Counted from the first letter of the stretch, positions 4,921 through 14,803 are shown. The stretch: 35,712 nucleotides of DNA from Candidatus Dormiibacterota bacterium (GCA_035536395.1 DATLOE010000003.1:1-35712); one strand, 5' to 3'. Numbers and translations are program-made. The notes: generated by a model not told the origin, from the letters alone.

Positions 4921-5451
4921 TTATTCCTTACTATTTTTAATTGCGTCCAGCACTGTGACTATTCCGCGTACGTTGCCGCCCATAACCCCTACTAGCCCGC
5001 TCATTGGTGCTGTAAAAGTTCCTACCAGCTTGGCTAGAAGCTCTTCCTTGGTTGGCAGTGTAGCCAAAGCCTTAACCTCCTCGGCCGAGAGCAGCTTGCC
5101 GTCAGCTGTAATGGCGCCGACGATATCGAGCGCTTTATGTTGAGCGGCGTACTGAAACACTACCCGGGCCGGGGCGATTTCATCATCGGCCGATACGGCT
5201 AGTGCCATGGGGCCGGTAAATGAACTTGGATCTATATGCGCCATTGCCGGCGTGTCTTTAACGGCAATACGCAGCAGGGTGTTCTTGGTTACCCTGTAGC
5301 TAATGCCTTCTTCACGCAGCGTGTCTCTTAGCTCGTTAATCTCAGCTACGCTTAAGCCGCGGTAATCAGTAAGTACCGCTAGCTTCAGCTGGCTTAAATC
5401 CTGCTTGAGCTGCTCTACATTCTGCTGTTTGACTTCCTTGGTTTTGGCCAT
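4921..5451 (-). CDS. rplJ: 50S ribosomal protein L10
   Basis: 176 residues, a normal length. The N-terminal domain that binds 23S rRNA (LAVLTDYRGLSVAEINELR, YRVTKNTLLRIAV) is followed by the C-terminal helix to which L7/L12 dimers dock. It is the base of the stalk. AAGGA lies 7 nt before the ATG. A clear L10 leader RNA precedes the gene, so L10 (with L7/L12) probably represses its own synthesis as in other bacteria. Unlike in most genomes, rplA does not lie directly upstream; a nucleotide-metabolism block separates them. Confidence 0.97.
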   Translation of the reverse strand: MAKTKEVKQQNVEQLKQDLSQLKLAVLTDYRGLSVAEINELRDTLREEGISYRVTKNTLLRIAVKDTPAMAHIDPSSFTGPMALAVSADDEIAPARVVFQYAAQHKALDIVGAITADGKLLSAEEVKALATLPTKEELLAKLVGTFTAPMSGLVGVMGGNVRGIVTVLDAIKNSKE

Positions 5452-5470
5452 AAAAAAATCCTTGGGTGTA

Positions 5471-5547
5471 CCAAAGACATGAGTGCGCCGGAAGTGGCGT
5501 TTTACCTCGGGAGCGGATTAAGCCCTGAAGGCTGCTCCTGTCTTTGG
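5471..5547 (-). promoter_or_regulatory. L10 leader (ribosomal protein autoregulatory RNA)
   Basis: The minus-strand RNA is closed by a perfect 9-bp stem, CCAAAGACA (5539-5547) with TGTCTTTGG (5471-5479). Inside is an arm GGAGC-AGCC-TTCA-GGGCT followed by TAATCC, GCTCC and CGAGG. The GGAGC/GCTCC pairing, the TTAATCC bulge and CGAGG after the stem match the conserved L10 leader consensus (Rfam L10_leader family, from memory). It lies between the promoter and rplJ and should bind L10-L7/L12 to repress the operon. Confidence 0.85.
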
Positions 5548-5558
5548 TGAACTAAAGT

Positions 5559-5587
5559 ATAATAGCGATTTTACTCCCTGGTGTCAA
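5559..5587 (-). promoter_or_regulatory. Promoter of the L10 leader-rplJ-rplL unit
   Basis: The minus strand reads TTGACA (5582-5587), a 17-nt spacer, then TATTAT (5559-5564). The -35 is perfect and the -10 matches 5 of 6. The predicted start lies just before the L10 leader. Confidence 0.85.
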
Positions 5588-5591
5588 CGGT

Positions 5592-5620
5592 TTTACAGAT
5601 ACAAACGCAAATGCTATTAT
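5592..5620 (+). promoter_or_regulatory. Promoter of the thyA operon
   Basis: TTTACA (5592-5597), a 17-nt spacer, then TATTAT (5615-5620), about 46 nt before the thyA ATG. Its -35 is only 4 bp from the -35 of the divergent rplJ promoter, so two polymerases would be hard to seat at the same time. Confidence 0.8.
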
Positions 5621-5666: not shown

Positions 5667-6575
5667 ATGCCTGAATATCTTCCGTACTCAGAAAGACACC
5701 CCTGTATTCAGTACCAAGACCTACTTCGAAGCATCATTAGAGATGGAGAGAAGGTAGCAACCAAGCAAGGGCCGGCTGCCTACTCCAGAATCGGTGTACA
5801 GATGCGCTTTAACCTGGCTCATGGATTTCCGATAATCGTCCAGCGCGACATGAGTAAGTTCTGGCGCAGTGGCATCGGTGAGCTGTGCGCGTTCATAAAT
5901 GGTGCACGCACCCTAAGCGAGCTTGCGCAGTTCGGCTGCAAGTGGTGGGGGCCTTGGGCCACAGAAGACAAATGTCGTTCGCGCGGTCTGGAAGCCGGCG
6001 ATCTTGGCCCCGGTTCATACGGACATGCCTTTAGACATTTCACAACTTCAGATGATCCGAATGAGGAAGGTTTTGACCAGTTCGGCCATTTGATACGCAA
6101 GCTCCGTGATTTGCCCGAGGATAGGACGGCCCTGGTAAGCCCCTGGGTGCCGCCGTTCAACCATCGTGAATATGGCATTAAGTCCCGTAATACGATCGCC
6201 CCATGTCATGGCTGGATTCAGGCTCGTGTTATGAATGGCAATCTGCACCTCCATATGAAGCAGCGTTCAGGCGATACGCCGGTTGGCGTGCCTTCTAATA
6301 TGGTGCAGTATGCCGCTCTGGGCCTCATGATCGAGCATCTGACGGGCTACAAGTTCACGGAGTATGTGCACTACATTGTGGATGCGCATATTTATGAGGA
6401 CCAAGAAGAACATGCACGTGAGATGATGGTGCGATGGCCAAAACGTCTGCCAGCGGTGGTTCTGAATGAAGCTGGCCAAGCCGTAAGTGACATTCATGAT
6501 TTCCGGGCAGAACATTTTGATCTGTACGATTACGATCCTCATCCGGAAATTTCGGGCATACCGGTGTCGGTATGA
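5667..6575 (+). CDS. thyA: Thymidylate synthase (divergent ThyA)
   Basis: 302 residues; makes dTMP from dUMP using methylene-tetrahydrofolate. The catalytic cysteine is in IAPCHGWIQ. DLGPGSYG matches the DLGPVYG folate loop, QRSGD the QRSCD motif (Cys changed to Gly, Asp kept), VPSNMVQYA holds the Asn that selects uracil, and DAHIY is intact. The phosphate-binding RTGT loop near the N-terminus is not recognisable (YSRIGVQ instead), and TTKK is replaced by VQRD. The conserved Asn favours dUMP over dCMP. I start at the ATG at 5667 (GAGAGG 4 nt upstream) rather than a TTG 12 nt earlier. First gene of an operon; overlaps folA by ATGA. Confidence 0.92.
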   Translation: MPEYLPYSERHPCIQYQDLLRSIIRDGEKVATKQGPAAYSRIGVQMRFNLAHGFPIIVQRDMSKFWRSGIGELCAFINGARTLSELAQFGCKWWGPWATEDKCRSRGLEAGDLGPGSYGHAFRHFTTSDDPNEEGFDQFGHLIRKLRDLPEDRTALVSPWVPPFNHREYGIKSRNTIAPCHGWIQARVMNGNLHLHMKQRSGDTPVGVPSNMVQYAALGLMIEHLTGYKFTEYVHYIVDAHIYEDQEEHAREMMVRWPKRLPAVVLNEAGQAVSDIHDFRAEHFDLYDYDPHPEISGIPVSV

Positions 6576-7060
6576 GCGTGGTACTGGTAGTGGCTCACAG
6601 TCTAAACCGAGTTATCGGTAATAAGGGGCAAATTCCCTGGCACATCCCTGCAGACCTAAGGAGGTTTAAGGAGATGACAATGGGTCACACGGTCGTTATG
6701 GGCCGTAAGACCTATGAGTCGCTCCCAGACAGGTTTAGGCCATTGCCGGGAAGAATCAATGTAGTTGCTACCCGCAACCCTGACTACCAGGCAGAAGGCT
6801 GTATTGTCATTCATGACCTTCCTGCTATGCTGAAATCTGCCAGCTTGGAGTCTGCCATATATGTGATCGGTGGATCTGAAATATATGCAGACTCCCTTGC
6901 ACTGGCTACCAGTGTAGAACTGACTCTGGTGGAGATAACCTGCGAAGGAGATGCAGTTTTCCCAGAACTGGATCATCAATGGCGGTGCACGTACCAAGGT
7001 CCGCATCAAGAAGATAACGACATCTGCTTTAGCTATGTAAGGTTCGAAAGGAAGTCATGA
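6572..7060 (+). CDS. folA: Dihydrofolate reductase
   Basis: 162 residues, the usual length. NRVIGNKGQIPWHIPADLRR contains the Met20-loop region and the active-site Asp (Asp28 by my count); MGRKTYESLP and VIGGSEIYA are the NADPH-binding motifs. It regenerates tetrahydrofolate from the dihydrofolate released by ThyA, so the coupling to thyA is functional as well as genetic. It overlaps thyA by 4 nt (ATGA) and the next gene in the same way, so all three are probably translated from one message. Confidence 0.97.
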   Translation: MSVVLVVAHSLNRVIGNKGQIPWHIPADLRRFKEMTMGHTVVMGRKTYESLPDRFRPLPGRINVVATRNPDYQAEGCIVIHDLPAMLKSASLESAIYVIGGSEIYADSLALATSVELTLVEITCEGDAVFPELDHQWRCTYQGPHQEDNDICFSYVRFERKS

Positions 7061-7509
7061 GTCTCTACAACGTCGAGGCTGCGCGCACTCCCGAGCAGCT
7101 CGAGAAAATGAGGCAGCTGGAGGATGAGGGTATCTGTGTATTCTGCTTGGAATATTTTGCTCAGTATCACACAGAGCCAATCTGTATGGATGGTCAATAT
7201 TGGTACGTTACCAAGAACGACTATCCATACCAGGGAGCCTTGGTGCATCTGCTAATTGTAGCCAAAGAGCATGTGACGGCTATTACAGAAATGCCGACGG
7301 AAGCCGGCAGTGAGCTGTTCGCCATGCTGGCAACGCTCAGGCAAGCGCATCAAGCTTCAAGCGAAGCGATTGTGGCAAGAAGCGGCGATATGAGGTTTAA
7401 TGCCGGCAGCGTGGAACATTTACATATTCATTATGTGATTGGTAACCCCGCCTTGGCTGAGAGCTCCCCTGTACGGTTCAAGCTCAGCTCAGCTCCGAAG
7501 AATAATTAA
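7057..7509 (+). CDS. HIT-family (histidine triad) protein
   Basis: 150 residues. The histidine triad HLHIHYV (121-127) is the catalytic signature of HIT nucleotide hydrolases and transferases, which attack the alpha-phosphate of a nucleotide. A CVFC pair (27-30) could bind zinc, as in some HIT branches. ALVHLLIVAKEHV corresponds to the usual strand before the second helix. AAGGA lies 4 nt before the ATG, which overlaps the folA stop. It is the last gene before a terminator. Its place beside thyA-folA suggests nucleotide salvage or clean-up, but the substrate is not determined. Confidence 0.9.
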   Translation: MSLYNVEAARTPEQLEKMRQLEDEGICVFCLEYFAQYHTEPICMDGQYWYVTKNDYPYQGALVHLLIVAKEHVTAITEMPTEAGSELFAMLATLRQAHQASSEAIVARSGDMRFNAGSVEHLHIHYVIGNPALAESSPVRFKLSSAPKNN

Positions 7510-7537
7510 CCCCCCGACCTAAAAAAGTCGGGGGGTT
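7508..7537. terminator. Shared bidirectional terminator
   Basis: An 11-bp GC-rich stem (7508-7518 with 7527-7537) around an 8-nt loop separates two convergent genes. The plus strand ends in TTTAACTTT and the minus strand in TTAATTATT. The right arm reaches the stop codon of the minus-strand gene. Confidence 0.8.
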
Positions 7538-8379
7538 TAACTTTGCAAATCTACCCGGATTATCTCTACACCTTGCTGATCCAAGACATCTTGGCCATCT
7601 AGCACAGCGTAGCCCTCCGAGTAGTACAGCCTGCTAATGCCGCTGTAGGCTACCTGCTTGGCACATGGGGGGCAAGGGAAATCTGTAACGTACATTTCCG
7701 CGCCTTCCAGGGATACTCCCAGCCTGGCAGCCTCGGCAACAATCCTAGCCTCGACATGGATTACCGTCGAAAGCTCGAGGTGTACTCCTTGGTAAAAGTT
7801 GCCCCTCGGGTCGCCATTGGCATATGGGGTATGCTGCGAAGGTACATGATCGTTCCTGGCACTCAGCAGCACCTTACCATCTTTTACTGCTAGTCCGCCG
7901 ACATGGCGCCACCAGTCCGAGCTGCCTTTTGCAAGCTCCTTGGCCTGGGCCATGAACTGCTTGTCTAGCTCACTGACGGGTATGGCCCTATGCGGCTGGA
8001 CCTCATTCAGGGCAACAGTATTACGGCGATCCCAGCGCAGGAATACAGTGTCGTACATGATGTGGCAGCGCTGAAAGTACTTCTCGGCAACCATCCGGCT
8101 GATGTCCTCATCTGGGAGTACTAACCTTGGATTCCCCATCGCTAGCTGTGAGGCTCCCATGGAATCCAGAATTTCGACTGAGTCGCATATGCCAAGTGCA
8201 TTAATAGCAAATGCCATATCAATAGCTCGTAAGGCCCTGATCTCTTTTTCGATTGGCCTATATCCAGCTGTCAGCTCCGGGCCAATCAAAAGGAGTCTGC
8301 CTCCGTATGCATGGCGCTTAATAAAACTAACATAGCCGCTATGCAGCACCGGGATATAGGCGACCGCCAACTGGCTCAT
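7537..8379 (-). CDS. Nucleotidyltransferase-like domain fused to a dCMP/cytidine deaminase domain
   Basis: 280 residues in two parts. The C-terminal half (about 150-280) is a zinc deaminase of the dCMP deaminase type: HVEA (His208, Glu210), PCPPC (Cys236, Cys239), then AKQVAYSGISRLYY, as in ComEB-like enzymes that make dUMP. The N-terminal part (1-130) reads like a HIGH-superfamily nucleotidyltransferase, VAYIPVLHSGYVSFIKR followed by a LLLIGPEL strand, but HxGH is HSGY, so it may be inactive or bind a ligand. It overlaps the RfaE2-like gene by ATGA. dUMP would feed the nearby thyA. The deaminase call is firm; the N-terminal domain and the exact substrate are inference. Confidence 0.82.
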   Translation of the reverse strand: MSQLAVAYIPVLHSGYVSFIKRHAYGGRLLLIGPELTAGYRPIEKEIRALRAIDMAFAINALGICDSVEILDSMGASQLAMGNPRLVLPDEDISRMVAEKYFQRCHIMYDTVFLRWDRRNTVALNEVQPHRAIPVSELDKQFMAQAKELAKGSSDWWRHVGGLAVKDGKVLLSARNDHVPSQHTPYANGDPRGNFYQGVHLELSTVIHVEARIVAEAARLGVSLEGAEMYVTDFPCPPCAKQVAYSGISRLYYSEGYAVLDGQDVLDQQGVEIIRVDLQS

Positions 8380-8966
8380 CGTTTGCCCCTGGCAATGTCG
8401 TCGATCAGCTGTGGCAGTATTTCCGCTAGTTGCGGGCCGAGCTTTTCGCCCAGATGCATAAACATCTGCCGAATCCGCTCACTGGTTGTAGTAGTAGACT
8501 GGCGCTCCATCACGGCTATTTCACCGCAGAACTTCTTCAGCGCTTTCATTTCTCCCGGCTTGTAGCCATGATCATTTGATAGCACCAAAACATCCGGCTG
8601 GACAGTACTGATCAGAGACCAGCGCTCGTCGTCAGCACCTTTCACATAAAGGATATCCACTGGTCTCTGGTAGGCCAGTGTTTCCAGTCGCTCGTCTTGC
8701 GGGACCATCGGCCTGTCTGGGCCTTTACGCCGGCGAATTTTTTCGTCGCCGTCTACCCCTACAATCAGAACATCGCCCATGTTTTTCGCGAGCTCCAGAT
8801 ACTTCAAGTGCCCGAGGTGGATCAGATCGAAAGAGCCGGAGGTCAAAACAATCTTTAGTCCGATGCCTTTCAGATGCTCCACCAGCTGACATAAATCTCC
8901 TAGCTCGGTAATGTAGCGATCACTAAAGTTCGCCTCATCACCGAAGATACCGCTGGTGATTGCCAT
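8376..8966 (-). CDS. RfaE2/TagD-like nucleotidyltransferase
   Basis: 196 residues. TSGSFDLIHLGHLKYLELA carries the HxGH nucleotidyltransferase motif (50-53), GDVLIVGVDGDEKIRRRKG follows as in the RfaE C-terminal domain and glycerol-3-phosphate cytidylyltransferases, and STTTTSERIR near residues 157-166 resembles the ISTTxIIERI motif. It should join a nucleotide (ADP or CDP) to a phosphorylated substrate. The ATG at 8966 has AGGAG 5 nt upstream; a TTG 24 nt earlier lacks a site. It overlaps the deaminase fusion by 4 nt. The substrate is unknown; no heptose pathway genes are seen. Confidence 0.85.
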   Translation of the reverse strand: MAITSGIFGDEANFSDRYITELGDLCQLVEHLKGIGLKIVLTSGSFDLIHLGHLKYLELAKNMGDVLIVGVDGDEKIRRRKGPDRPMVPQDERLETLAYQRPVDILYVKGADDERWSLISTVQPDVLVLSNDHGYKPGEMKALKKFCGEIAVMERQSTTTTSERIRQMFMHLGEKLGPQLAEILPQLIDDIARGKR

Positions 8967-9031
8967 CCCTGCTCCTAGAGTAGATTTCAAGGTAAGGTAA
9001 GCCGTCTCACCTCACCGACTTTACAGGGTGG

Positions 9032-9061
9032 ATATTACCATAGCGGGTTTAGGTTGGGCAA
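9032..9061 (-). promoter_or_regulatory. Promoter candidate of the nucleotidyltransferase-deaminase pair
   Basis: The minus strand reads TTGCCC (9056-9061), an 18-nt spacer, then TAATAT (9032-9037), starting directly after the rplA stop. It would separate this pair from the secE-nusG-rplKA unit. Confidence 0.5.
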
Positions 9062-10138
9062 TTAGGTATTACGCGGGTTAGAATCGGCTATGGCCTTTTG
9101 AGCATCCAGTTTTATACCCGGGCCCATAGAAGTAGTTAGCGATATCGCCTTAATATATGAACCTTTAGTGCTCGATGGTTTGGCTTTTAGGATGCCATTC
9201 ACGACCTCTTTGATGTTTGCCAGTAGATCTTCCTCCTTAAAGCTTACCTTGCCGACAGGCGCGTGAACAATAGATTGCTTATCAACCCTAAACTCGATCT
9301 TGCCGGCCTTGGCCTGTAAGACGGCGCTTTCTATATTAGTCGTTACGGTACCGCTTTTCGGGTTCGGCATAAGGTTTCGCGGGCCTAGCACCTTGGCTAC
9401 CTTTCCTAACTTCGGCATCATATCGGGTGTGGCAATCAAAACGTCGAAGTCGAGCTTACCCTTTTCTATTTGCTCCAGTAAATCGCCATCACTTATAATA
9501 TCGGCTTCGGCTTTCTTGGCCTCAGCGTGTTTATTAGCTGTAGCAAGTACCGCTACGCGAGCCTGCTTACCGGTTCCGGCTGGCAGCACTACGCTAGCCC
9601 GTACCATTTGGTCGGCCTGCTTAGGGTCAACACCCAGATTAACATGCAGCTCCACTGTGGCATCAAATTTGACTTTTGAAGTCTTCTTGGCCAGCTCAAC
9701 TGCCTCACTCAGGTCGTACTGCTTAGTTTTGTCAATTAGCTCACTAACTGCCAGATAGTTCTTGCCGTGACGGTTTTTGGGGTTTGGCTTGTGCTCTGGC
9801 TTCTTTACAGCTGGCTTTGGCTCGGTTTCAATATTTTCCTTGCGGTCTGCTTCATCATCAGCCTCCCTGACCGACTTCGCTGAGCGCTTACCGGCCTTGG
9901 CCGCAGGCTTTTTAGGCTCTTTCCCCGGCTTGTCCTCCGCTTGCTCTTCCTCTATTTTTTCATCCTCATCCTCGTTGCGCAAAATATGCTCACCCGTAAC
10001 ATCTGTTGTGTCCTTAGGTGTCGGCAGTGCCGATGCATCTATATCTTCGGAGCCGGATTCTAGATCTAGTACTTCTTCCCGCTCGAAGGCTTCAGCTTCT
10101 AGTTCTTGTTTCTTTTCACTTTTATCTTGTTTAGCCAT
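9062..10138 (-). CDS. rplA: 50S ribosomal protein L1 with long acidic N-terminal extension
   Basis: 358 residues, against about 230 normally. Standard L1 begins near residue 123 (RHGKNYLAVSELIDKTKQYD) and is complete, including LIATPDMMPKLGKVAKVLGP and NLMPNPKSGTV, which bind 23S rRNA at the L1 stalk. The first 120 residues are a low-complexity chain, first strongly acidic (Glu/Asp, about 15-70), then mixed Lys/Pro/Ala, with no recognisable domain; probably disordered. AGGAGG lies 4 nt before the ATG, so the extension is translated. It follows rplK. L7/L12, the protein of the other stalk, also has a charged extension. Confidence 0.96.
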   Translation of the reverse strand: MAKQDKSEKKQELEAEAFEREEVLDLESGSEDIDASALPTPKDTTDVTGEHILRNEDEDEKIEEEQAEDKPGKEPKKPAAKAGKRSAKSVREADDEADRKENIETEPKPAVKKPEHKPNPKNRHGKNYLAVSELIDKTKQYDLSEAVELAKKTSKVKFDATVELHVNLGVDPKQADQMVRASVVLPAGTGKQARVAVLATANKHAEAKKAEADIISDGDLLEQIEKGKLDFDVLIATPDMMPKLGKVAKVLGPRNLMPNPKSGTVTTNIESAVLQAKAGKIEFRVDKQSIVHAPVGKVSFKEEDLLANIKEVVNGILKAKPSSTKGSYIKAISLTTSMGPGIKLDAQKAIADSNPRNT

Positions 10139-12731: not shown

Positions 12732-14750
12732 TTACGGCCCTACCCTTCTCGGTGTAATACGTAACCAGCGGTGCTGCACAGTTGAGTTAGCCGCTATCCC
12801 AGTCCGGTATTTCGAAGTTACGGTTACAGCGCTAAGACCAGTGTGTAACTTTTCCCTGGAAAGGGAGGCTTGGACCCGTTCGAACTGAGATTCGGTGTTC
12901 GTTATCCAGATTGAATCAGCATCGGTTGCGGGGGTTGCTCCGATTTGATAGCTCATAAAGGTAGAATGCCAACTTACGTTATTGGCCAGCATGTTAGAGC
13001 CGTGAGAAATAATGTAATCTCCGGCCAAGGGCAGGGTTATGGACGGCCCCACCGTAGCCAAATCGTGATAGGCGGTGCCATTATTATTTTCGGCAGTATC
13101 TATTTGACTCATCAGGTCTCCGCCCCCCATAAACTCCCACTTATGCGCACTAGCCGACCCCGCCCGATATCTCAGATGCCAGTAAACACCATTAGTGGCA
13201 TCGGCTTGGTAGGTTACTTCATCGCCATCGCTGGGGCTAGAGGGTAGCGTAGTAACCACAGGCGCAGACACGGCACTCCAGGCTCCGTCCACACAAACCT
13301 TACCTTGCTTGGTAGAAGAGTTGTAGTACACGGCTCCGCTAGTGCAGGTCGGGTCCCCGGCCGTGTTCTTTGTACCCAGCACCAGCAGTACTGGTGTGGC
13401 TGAGGCTGCGCCTAGGGTGATCTTTAGGCCGGAAGTATCTACCGTAAAGATAGCAGCCGAAGAGGCGTTTTGGACTTGGAAGGCGGTGGTGGAGTCTGTA
13501 GCTGTTTTAACCAAGAAGTCGTCATCCGTCTTCAGTTGATTAGCTGCCCCTCTGTACAAATTAACGTCACGTCCTGACCCAAATAATATTCCATTAGCTT
13601 CGTTGGTGAATGTCCCACCAGCTCCAAGCCATAGCGCCGCATTGTCAGCACCATCAATCCTAATACCAGCATCGAAACTAGAGCCGGCTATCTGGTTGTC
13701 TATCCTAATTCCATAATTGTTTAAGATATTTCCGCCGCCAGATGGATTCTGAATGTGAATACCCCTCGCCTGCGTAACAGTTCCCGTTGTCTTGTCCGAT
13801 CCTACTAAAACCTTAATGCCGTTCATTTCGGTAACGTTGCCACTTTCAGTAAAATCATCATCATTGAAAGCCAGAATATCTAAGCCGTTTAGAAATTGGA
13901 CTGTTCCTGTTCCATAATGCGTAGCTTTCGCATAAACACCATCCATTTTGTGAACATTGCCGGTAGTCGAATTATTTTCTGTAGTAACTTCACCCATGAC
14001 CCCTATGGCATCAACATCTTGTGTCTCCATATCTTGTGTTGAAACAATCCTAATTTTCCCGATGACGCCTCTTAGATCCATGGGAGCAGTTAATGCCGCC
14101 GAGGGCGTATAGGTAACACGGAAATGTCCGCCATATATATTAGAACCTGAGGTCTTTGTGAATAGTTCATGCCCATCAACAACAGCATCATAATTGCTGG
14201 TACTTGGATATTCACTAGTGGATCCGAATACCCCCTTACCATTTGCAGTAACATCACCAATAACATTGAAACGATTATTAACTGTATCGATTCTAACAAC
14301 TGCAATTCCCGCCGCATTCTGCACCTGAAAAGCTGTAGTGGAGTTAGTATTATTCTTAAACGCCTGATTATTACCAGTGAAAGTCTGTGAGTTTCGGTCA
14401 AGTAACGCTACATTGACTGAAAGCTGAGAATCATTAATGCTGCCACTAGGGCCTTCGGGCCCGGTTGCTCCAGTTGCACCAGTAGCTCCGCCGGAGCCTT
14501 GGAGACCCTGTGAACCAGTGGCTCCTGTTGAGCCTTGCAGGCCCCGGGCTCCCTGAGGGCCGATGGAGCCATTTGCACCAGTGAGGCCGGTCAGACCAGG
14601 GGACCCGGTGGGGCCTGGGGATCCTTGAATACCGGCCTCACCCCTTTCACCGGGGTAGACTAGGTGCTGGTCGGCCAAAAAACCAGAGGTAGCGCCAATT
14701 ATAGTGGTGATTACAGACAGAACTGCGAGTTTGCTAAAAGTAAGCTTCAC
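12732..14750 (-). CDS. Membrane-anchored collagen-like surface protein
   Basis: About 672 residues. A basic N-terminus and hydrophobic helix (about 8-27) form a signal anchor. Then come 23 uninterrupted Gly-X-Y triplets (DNA about 14445-14651), rich in GAT, GLT and GSP, able to form a collagen triple helix. The long remainder is Asn/Thr/Gly/Asp-rich, beta-type, with two [10 protein letters not shown] repeats, resembling phage-fibre and CPR surface proteins, and a [18 protein letters not shown] loop that could be disulfide-bonded. It probably works outside the cell, perhaps in host attachment (inference). I prefer GTG at 14750 (GGGAG 9 nt upstream); TTG at 14756 lies very close to that site. 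Confidence 0.85.
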
Positions 14751-14803
14751 AGGCAATAGCTCCCACCAGAAAAATACGCGGATGTATACTCCAACATAAT
14801 CCC

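Follow-up and report, generated by a model that had tools for sequence, protein, structure and literature searches.

Why are five genes for nucleotide enzymes placed between the ribosomal protein genes rplA and rplJ, and what would a nucleotidyltransferase and a HIT-domain protein do beside a thymidylate synthase? The synthesis of dTMP is essential, and is regarded as solved textbook chemistry. We analysed this locus in a 35,712-nucleotide stretch of DNA from a Candidatus Dormiibacterota bacterium (GCA_035536395.1 DATLOE010000003.1:1-35712), hereafter called the window, and in its relatives. The five genes very probably form a dTMP-synthesis unit, and our best reading is that they constitute an alternative thymidylate-synthesis module, located in the rplA–rplJ interval, where thymidylate genes usually lie.

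Organization of the locus

The slot is bordered by rplJ (L10; 4921..5451, minus strand) and rplA (L1; 9062..10138, minus strand), and the gap between the rplJ start at 5451 and the rplA end at 9062 is 3,610 bp. On the plus strand, it contains the genes of ThyA (5667..6575), the dihydrofolate reductase FolA (DHFR; 6572..7060) and the HIT-domain protein (HIT; 7057..7509), with an overlap of 4 bp at each junction. These are convergent with the minus-strand genes of a two-domain deaminase (DEAM; 7537..8379) and a nucleotidyltransferase (NT; 8376..8966), and a terminator common to both units (7508..7537) forms a 13-pair stem with a T-run on both strands. The preliminary description, which reported about 3.6 kb with a thyA-folA-HIT unit facing a nucleotidyltransferase/deaminase pair across one terminator, was thus correct, as all five ORFs are present. 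Each was identified by a Pfam profile: PF00303 for ThyA (4e-61), PF00186 for DHFR (5e-50; 169.8 bits against a cut-off of 25), PF01230 for HIT (2e-5), PF00383 for DEAM (1.5e-12) and PF01467 for NT (8e-14; 52.5 bits against a cut-off of 21). For NT, the ATG start at 8966 agrees with the homologues, and a TTG start at 8990 is possible.

NT and DEAM are read in the same direction as rplA. At the other border, back-to-back promoter-like sites (5559..5620), detected solely by a consensus scan, comprise TTGACA-17-TATTAT on the minus strand for rplJL and TTTACA-17-TATTAT on the plus strand for thyA. The L10 autoregulatory leader of rplJL is retained (5443..5565, minus strand; RF00557, 50.7 bits). With this leader and the divergent promoter-like sites, the ribosomal genes remain under control of their own.

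The rplA–rplJ interval as a thymidylate slot

Is this placement peculiar to the window genome? In Saccharimonadia, the rplA–rplJ interval is an ancient, class-wide thymidylate slot. It holds ThyA-DHFR-DCD-Tmk in eight genomes and DCD-Tmk in eight others. The window and 14 relatives carry the present module there, six genomes carry a second module, and four have either SHMT by itself or nothing recognisable. In addition, 62 of the 111 Tmk-bearing genomes have Tmk upstream of rplJ, at a distance of at most 9 kb. The split ribosomal operon therefore follows a class-wide habit, rather than an insertion peculiar to the window genome. The separation of rplKA from rplJL, which had been singled out as an oddity, is normal in this class, and the term “island” used for the gap is misleading.

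The second module consists of APH kinase-NT-HIT-DEAM-ThyA, with DHFR. Its APH kinase has no match in the PDB. In two relatives, NT carries an N-terminal extension of about 280–315 residues, in which homology to this APH kinase was not detected.

Co-occurrence and spread of the module

In order to define the gene set, we searched 147 genomes, mostly of the same class, with NT, DEAM, HIT and ThyA as queries. All four queries have their matches close together in one set of 14 relatives, with NT and DEAM facing HIT, DHFR and ThyA (NT>DEAM> facing <HIT<DHFR<ThyA) in nearly all of them. The rplA/rplJ slot holds the set in 14/14 of these Saccharimonadia loci; both rplA and rplJ flank it in 11, and one flank is present in the three at a contig end. 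A wider search with a DEAM alignment against 85,000 species genomes matched 254 relatives and gave 80 loci, distributed over Patescibacteria (Moranbacteria, Pacebacteria, Parcubacteria, Uhrbacteria, WWE3 and others) and Actinobacteria (Conexibacter, Solirubrobacterales and Phycicoccus). Among these loci, DEAM is accompanied by NT in 80/80, HIT in 77/80, ThyA in 76/80, DHFR in 64/80 and SHMT in 25/80; the 80-locus tallies leave out the window itself, one having been subtracted from each tally that included it. The preliminary description had named rare co-occurrence of the five genes as evidence against its view. This objection clearly fails, as the genes are present together in dozens of genera, mostly in the same convergent layout. 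The actinobacterial loci contain the same gene set but in divergent or all-one-direction arrangements, indicating that the content of the module is conserved and its layout is not.

As judged from these gene neighbourhoods, NT, DEAM, HIT and ThyA form a core that stays linked from Patescibacteria into Actinobacteria, together with DHFR and often SHMT. The distances of NT, DEAM, HIT and ThyA co-vary (Mantel rho 0.32–0.54, with 0/200 permutations as high). The DHFR distances do not co-vary with those of the other module genes, as if DHFR were freely exchanged. In 32 of the 80 loci, nusG-rplK(-rplA) immediately precedes the module, and rplK lies downstream in one more. Its spread is patchy (full-length DEAM in 21/380 Patescibacteria genomes), and the window module most resembles actinobacterial modules (NT up to 69%, ThyA 66%); module exchange between lineages is likely. 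The ORF lengths in Conexibacter pointed to NT-DEAM fusions, but these proved to be artefacts of reading stop-to-stop frames in GC-rich DNA.

The dUMP-phosphate pocket of ThyA

How does the module ThyA differ from the canonical enzyme? We audited the residues of 88 module sequences in E. coli numbering, with a reference identical to PDB 1aob. Glu58, Trp80, Tyr94, Cys146, Ser167, Asp169 and Asn177 are invariant in 88/88, and Arg166, His207 and Tyr209 are nearly invariant. In contrast, the full set of the four arginines that bind the dUMP phosphate (Arg21, Arg126′, Arg127′ and Arg166; PMC6005164, Table 2) is not kept: Arg127′ is lost in 86 of the 88 sequences, with Thr in its place in 83, and Arg21 is lost in 76. 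In the window ThyA, which is the sole ThyA of its genome, Arg21 is replaced by Lys and Arg127′ by Thr, with the catalytic residues intact. Moreover, Lys48 is Arg in all 88 sequences, and residues 126–146, forming the catalytic loop, span 28 residues rather than 21 in 80/88; the loop of the window ThyA is seven residues longer than that of E. coli.

The canonical non-module ThyA proteins keep all four arginines (23/23 checked), and a third ThyA clade keeps those at 126′, 127′ and 166 in 12 sequences. In the second-module ThyA, Arg127′ is lost in 13/13 and position 126′ is Lys, a count that leaves out two sequences with all four arginines from canonical DCD-type loci. The first- and second-module ThyA proteins form separate clades. 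Since the AU test does not reject a shared origin of the two (p 0.24), Arg127′ may have been lost in a single event, and independent loss in the two clades is not established. A Vibrio thymidylate synthase naturally without Arg127′ tolerates this, with a raised Km (PMC6005164).

The deaminase, nucleotidyltransferase and HIT protein

Both profile and fold identify the C-terminal domain of DEAM as a dCMP deaminase, with the motifs HVE and PCPPC. The zinc-catalytic residues of HxE and PCxxC (H208, E210, C236 and C239) are invariant, and the predicted structure (AF2 pLDDT 93) matches the T4 and S. mutans dCMP deaminases in Foldseek. The G(Y/W)N(A/G) motif, the allosteric dCTP/dTTP site of dCMP deaminase (PMC12088426), occurs in 0/91 DEAM sequences. 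In the NCBIfam model of anti-phage dCTP deaminase, NF041025, DEAM scores 48.9 bits against a cut-off of 400. A longer phosphate tail has precedent, since the deaminase-fold enzymes of PBCV-1 and XP-12, as well as CDADC1, accept dCDP or dCTP (PMC12088426).

The N-terminal domain of DEAM (about residues 1–130) is confidently predicted to adopt an alpha/beta fold, and Y8, P10, H13, G15, Y16, R48, P89 and the FLRWD stretch at 113–117 are invariant or nearly so. It has no match in Pfam or among the PDB sequences. The preliminary description had counted two nucleotidyltransferase domains, which is only half supported: NT is the one clear domain, and the DEAM N-terminal domain aligns with NT at an hhalign probability of only 2%, although its predicted fold is alpha/beta. 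Homology of this domain to the N-terminal domain of the second-module deaminase, which is similar in size, or to HIT was not detected either.

NT has the motifs HxGH and TTTTxxxR, and its HxGH and (S/T)TS motifs are conserved in almost every one of the 14 relatives aligned. Its nearest PDB profiles are ethanolamine-phosphate cytidylyltransferase and RfaE-like proteins, and its nearest solved relatives act on phospho-alcohols. The HIT protein has CxxC and HxHxH on a HIT fold (AF2 pLDDT 94); some relatives have Gln in place of the third His of HxHxH. The matches of the HIT protein to Hint, Fhit, Ap4A phosphorylase and GalT are all weak. In several relatives HIT and DHFR form one ORF, which ties HIT to the dTMP cycle. 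DHFR is also fused to ThyA in one relative.

Tmk, DCD and the neighbouring pathway genes

Does the module replace other steps of the pathway? Among the 15 Saccharimonadia module genomes, Tmk exceeds the family cut-off in only one, where it adjoins the module. As the genomes are drafts, single absences mean little, but the trend across all 15 carries more weight. The other ThyA-bearing Saccharimonadia genomes have Tmk in 55/56 (Fisher p 9e-13, uncorrected for kinship), and the second-module genomes in 2/9. Saccharimonadia with neither ThyA nor the module also often lack Tmk. A dUTPase or DCD above the cut-off is present in three of the 15 module genomes and in none of the other 12; in Saccharimonadia, the dUTPase comparison (3/15 versus 61/132, p 0.06) is suggestive.

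Outside Saccharimonadia, Tmk occurs in 10/16 module genomes, often a few kilobases from the module, so that Tmk absence as a phylum-wide mark of the module is unsupported (10/16 versus 30/42, p 0.54). The idea that a missing dUTPase marks the module generally is likewise contradicted there, where dUTPase neighbours the module. Among the recurrent neighbours are dUTPase (31/80 loci) and Tmk (16–18/80), and the SHMT and FolD genes also lie near the module in relatives. With Tmk and dUTPase near the module, free dUMP and dTMP probably exist in its bearers outside Saccharimonadia. The complete dTMP route seen in the preliminary description finds support in the intact catalytic residues and in these linked SHMT, dUTPase and Tmk genes. 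A salvage module, also proposed there, is not specifically supported, as ribonucleotide reductase is present (13/15 Saccharimonadia module genomes). Its other suggestion, an unusual nucleotide, is plausible for an intermediate, considering the altered ThyA phosphate pocket and the absent Tmk.

A proposed model of conversion on a conjugate

What, then, would NT and HIT do? A nucleotidyltransferase and a HIT enzyme are opposite halves of one cycle, in which a nucleoside-diphosphate bond is made and broken. We propose, with a probability of about 0.38, that NT forms, and HIT cleaves, a nucleotide conjugate that carries the deamination and probably the methylation. This would be the simplest joint explanation of NT and HIT placed around a deaminase with an additional domain and a ThyA with a re-shaped pocket. 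What the sequences show is the composition of the module, its residues and what it replaces; the following chemical steps are all inferred.

NT would attach a phosphorylated handle X to a (deoxy)cytidine nucleotide (dCTP + X-P → dCDP-X + PPi) or, alternatively, produce AppdC from ATP and dCMP. The conjugate would be held by the additional N-terminal domain of DEAM and deaminated to the dU conjugate, which ThyA, with its re-shaped phosphate pocket, would methylate with methylene-THF; DHFR and SHMT would regenerate the methylene-THF. Finally, HIT would split the dT conjugate, either hydrolytically into dTMP and X-P or phosphorolytically into dTDP and X-P, with X-P being returned. In the second module, the APH-family kinase may be the source of X-P. 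Phosphorolysis by HIT would explain the Saccharimonadia module genomes without Tmk and DCD.

A more far-reaching form, which we consider doubtful, is that deamination and methylation both occur on a nucleotide 5′-diphosphate conjugate, and that HIT, as a (pyro)phosphorylase, frees dTDP or dTTP, bypassing free dUMP, free dTMP and Tmk. If true, this would be a third dTTP logic beside the DCD/DUT–ThyA–Tmk and DCTD–ThyA–Tmk routes, and would account for dTTP in some tiny Patescibacteria without thymidylate kinase.

Several observations were counted against conversion on a conjugate: the loss of Arg127′ in Vibrio, its possible single loss in the module clades, Tmk and dUTPase near the module outside Saccharimonadia, the frequent absence of Tmk from Saccharimonadia without ThyA or the module, and a DEAM N-terminal domain without a sequence match to nucleotidyltransferases.

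Alternative explanations

The genes may instead serve ordinary dTMP synthesis, a possible reading that we regard with some reserve. Here free dCMP would be converted to dUMP by DEAM and to dTMP by ThyA, with DHFR recycling the folate, ThyA having drifted, and NT and HIT being co-regulated with another role. That role could concern a cofactor, a signalling nucleotide or a housekeeping nucleotide. The intact catalytic residues of all the enzymes, the many relatives with dUTPase, Tmk, SHMT and FolD genes close to the module and the Vibrio precedent for the Arg127′ loss (PMC6005164) agree with ordinary synthesis. However, NT and HIT accompany DEAM too tightly for unrelated partners, HIT is fused to DHFR, and Tmk is absent from the Saccharimonadia module genomes; the nearly constant replacement of Arg127′ by Thr, with a conserved seven-residue loop insertion, is not drift. 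It is unlikely that NT and HIT form a two-step dCTP pyrophosphatase (dCTP + X-P → dCDP-X → dCMP + X-P), providing free dCMP to DEAM, with ThyA then acting on free dUMP. This scheme places a dCMP-type deaminase downstream of NT and HIT and agrees with both the co-located Tmk outside Saccharimonadia and the absence of DCD where Saccharimonadia carry the module, but it leaves unexplained the altered ThyA pocket, the additional DEAM domain and the grouping of HIT with ThyA-DHFR rather than NT-DEAM.

Could the end product be a modified nucleotide rather than dTTP, such as a dT-diphosphate conjugate destined for a surface polymer or modified DNA? NT is nearest to makers of CDP-alcohols or ADP-heptose, and several genomes have a glycosyltransferase gene beside the second module; none was conspicuous among the genes that recur near the first module (80 loci). 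Since the sole ThyA of the window genome is that of the module, and the module replaces ordinary dTMP genes in the same slot, we consider this end product quite improbable. A recently acquired mobile or anti-phage island is very improbable: its patchy spread and its closeness to actinobacterial modules would suit such an island, but the rplA–rplJ gap has no mobility genes, the same slot is used across classes, only one viral contig carries the NT-DEAM pair, and the anti-phage matches amount to a 66-residue stretch of a deaminase model, the sole match in PADLOC, and a score far below the NF041025 cut-off.

Significance and comparison with known systems

Every enzyme is from a known superfamily, and the cluster itself is without a description in the open-licence literature searched; the main text of Meheust 2019 does not mention the module genes. 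NT and HIT are always added, the ThyA pocket is re-shaped, and DCD and Tmk are replaced in Saccharimonadia, which suggests a different route to dTMP. Its presence in the isolates Conexibacter sp. CPCC 206217, Conexibacter sp. CPCC 205762 and Phycicoccus flavus opens the module to biochemistry and genetics.

How does the module compare with known systems? NT has HxGH and (S/T)TS..R in common with RfaE/HldE domain II and with the ethanolamine-phosphate and glycerol-3-phosphate cytidylyltransferases, but it scores 102 bits against the RfaE family cut-off of 181.5, and its gene partners differ from theirs. DEAM shares the HxE and PCxxC zinc site with DCTD, ComEB and phage T4 Cd, and its profile and fold matches are the dCMP deaminases of T4, S. 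mutans and S-TIM5; unlike these, it has an additional conserved N-terminal domain, and the allosteric motif is absent in 91/91. The HxHxH motif and fold of HIT are those of Hint, Fhit, the Ap4A phosphorylase Rv2613c and GalT, although no solved HIT enzyme is close (about 20% identity).

The module ThyA resembles the E. coli-type ThyA with DHFR and the protist bifunctional DHFR-TS in its fold, in its catalytic Cys, Glu, Asn, His and Tyr, and in the coupled DHFR, often with SHMT. It differs from the E. coli type in the loss of two of the four dUMP-phosphate arginines, the Lys48-to-Arg replacement and the seven-residue catalytic-loop insertion. Finally, the DCD-ThyA-DHFR-Tmk cluster of other Saccharimonadia occupies the same rplA–rplJ slot and covers the same pathway segment as the module, but it uses an unrelated deaminase, DCD, includes Tmk, and has neither NT nor HIT.

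A second module in the rplA–rplJ slot, and other loci

The rplA–rplJ slot of L130, L131, L135, L136, and L138 (genomes G071, G116, G141, G093, and G115, respectively) houses a second thymidylate module, in which the genes for an APH-family kinase, a nucleotidyltransferase (NT), a HIT-domain protein, a deaminase, and thymidylate synthase (ThyA) are co-oriented and flanked on one side by a DHFR gene. The N-domain of this deaminase differs from that of the two-domain deaminase (DEAM) of the first module. In several of these loci, ThyA is adjoined by a convergent gene of ~390 codons, which in L136 encodes a GT4 glycosyltransferase.

Two module genomes encode an NT with an additional N-terminal domain of 280–315 residues (L123, 6779–8227; L126, 7496–9022), which had no Pfam match. 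An NT–DEAM pair is borne by a 158-kb viral contig of a putative large virus (L275, IMGVR_UViG_3300037483_001116), with neither HIT nor ThyA within 6 kb. In the window, 12732–14756 (minus strand) encodes a 674-residue protein with a collagen-like Gly-X-Y stretch close to its N-terminus.

ThyA diversity and absence

A third, very divergent ThyA clade (L255–L266; Saccharimonadia genera g24 and g41) shares about 26% identity with the ThyA of the window and differs in its N-terminal loop. No thymidylate kinase (Tmk) exceeded the cut-off in nine Saccharimonadia genomes lacking ThyA and the module (G001, G006, G011, G017, G018, G025, G029, G033, and G034); the same holds for G003 (84% complete).

In G134, the slot contains a ThyA-like gene (L232, about 7842–8648), neighbored by DCD-like, deaminase-like, and Tmk genes. 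Its product has VPCP at the active Cys, and carries Arg127→His and the dCMP-hydroxymethylase-like change Asn177→Asp (E. coli numbering). This protein may produce a modified cytosine nucleotide.
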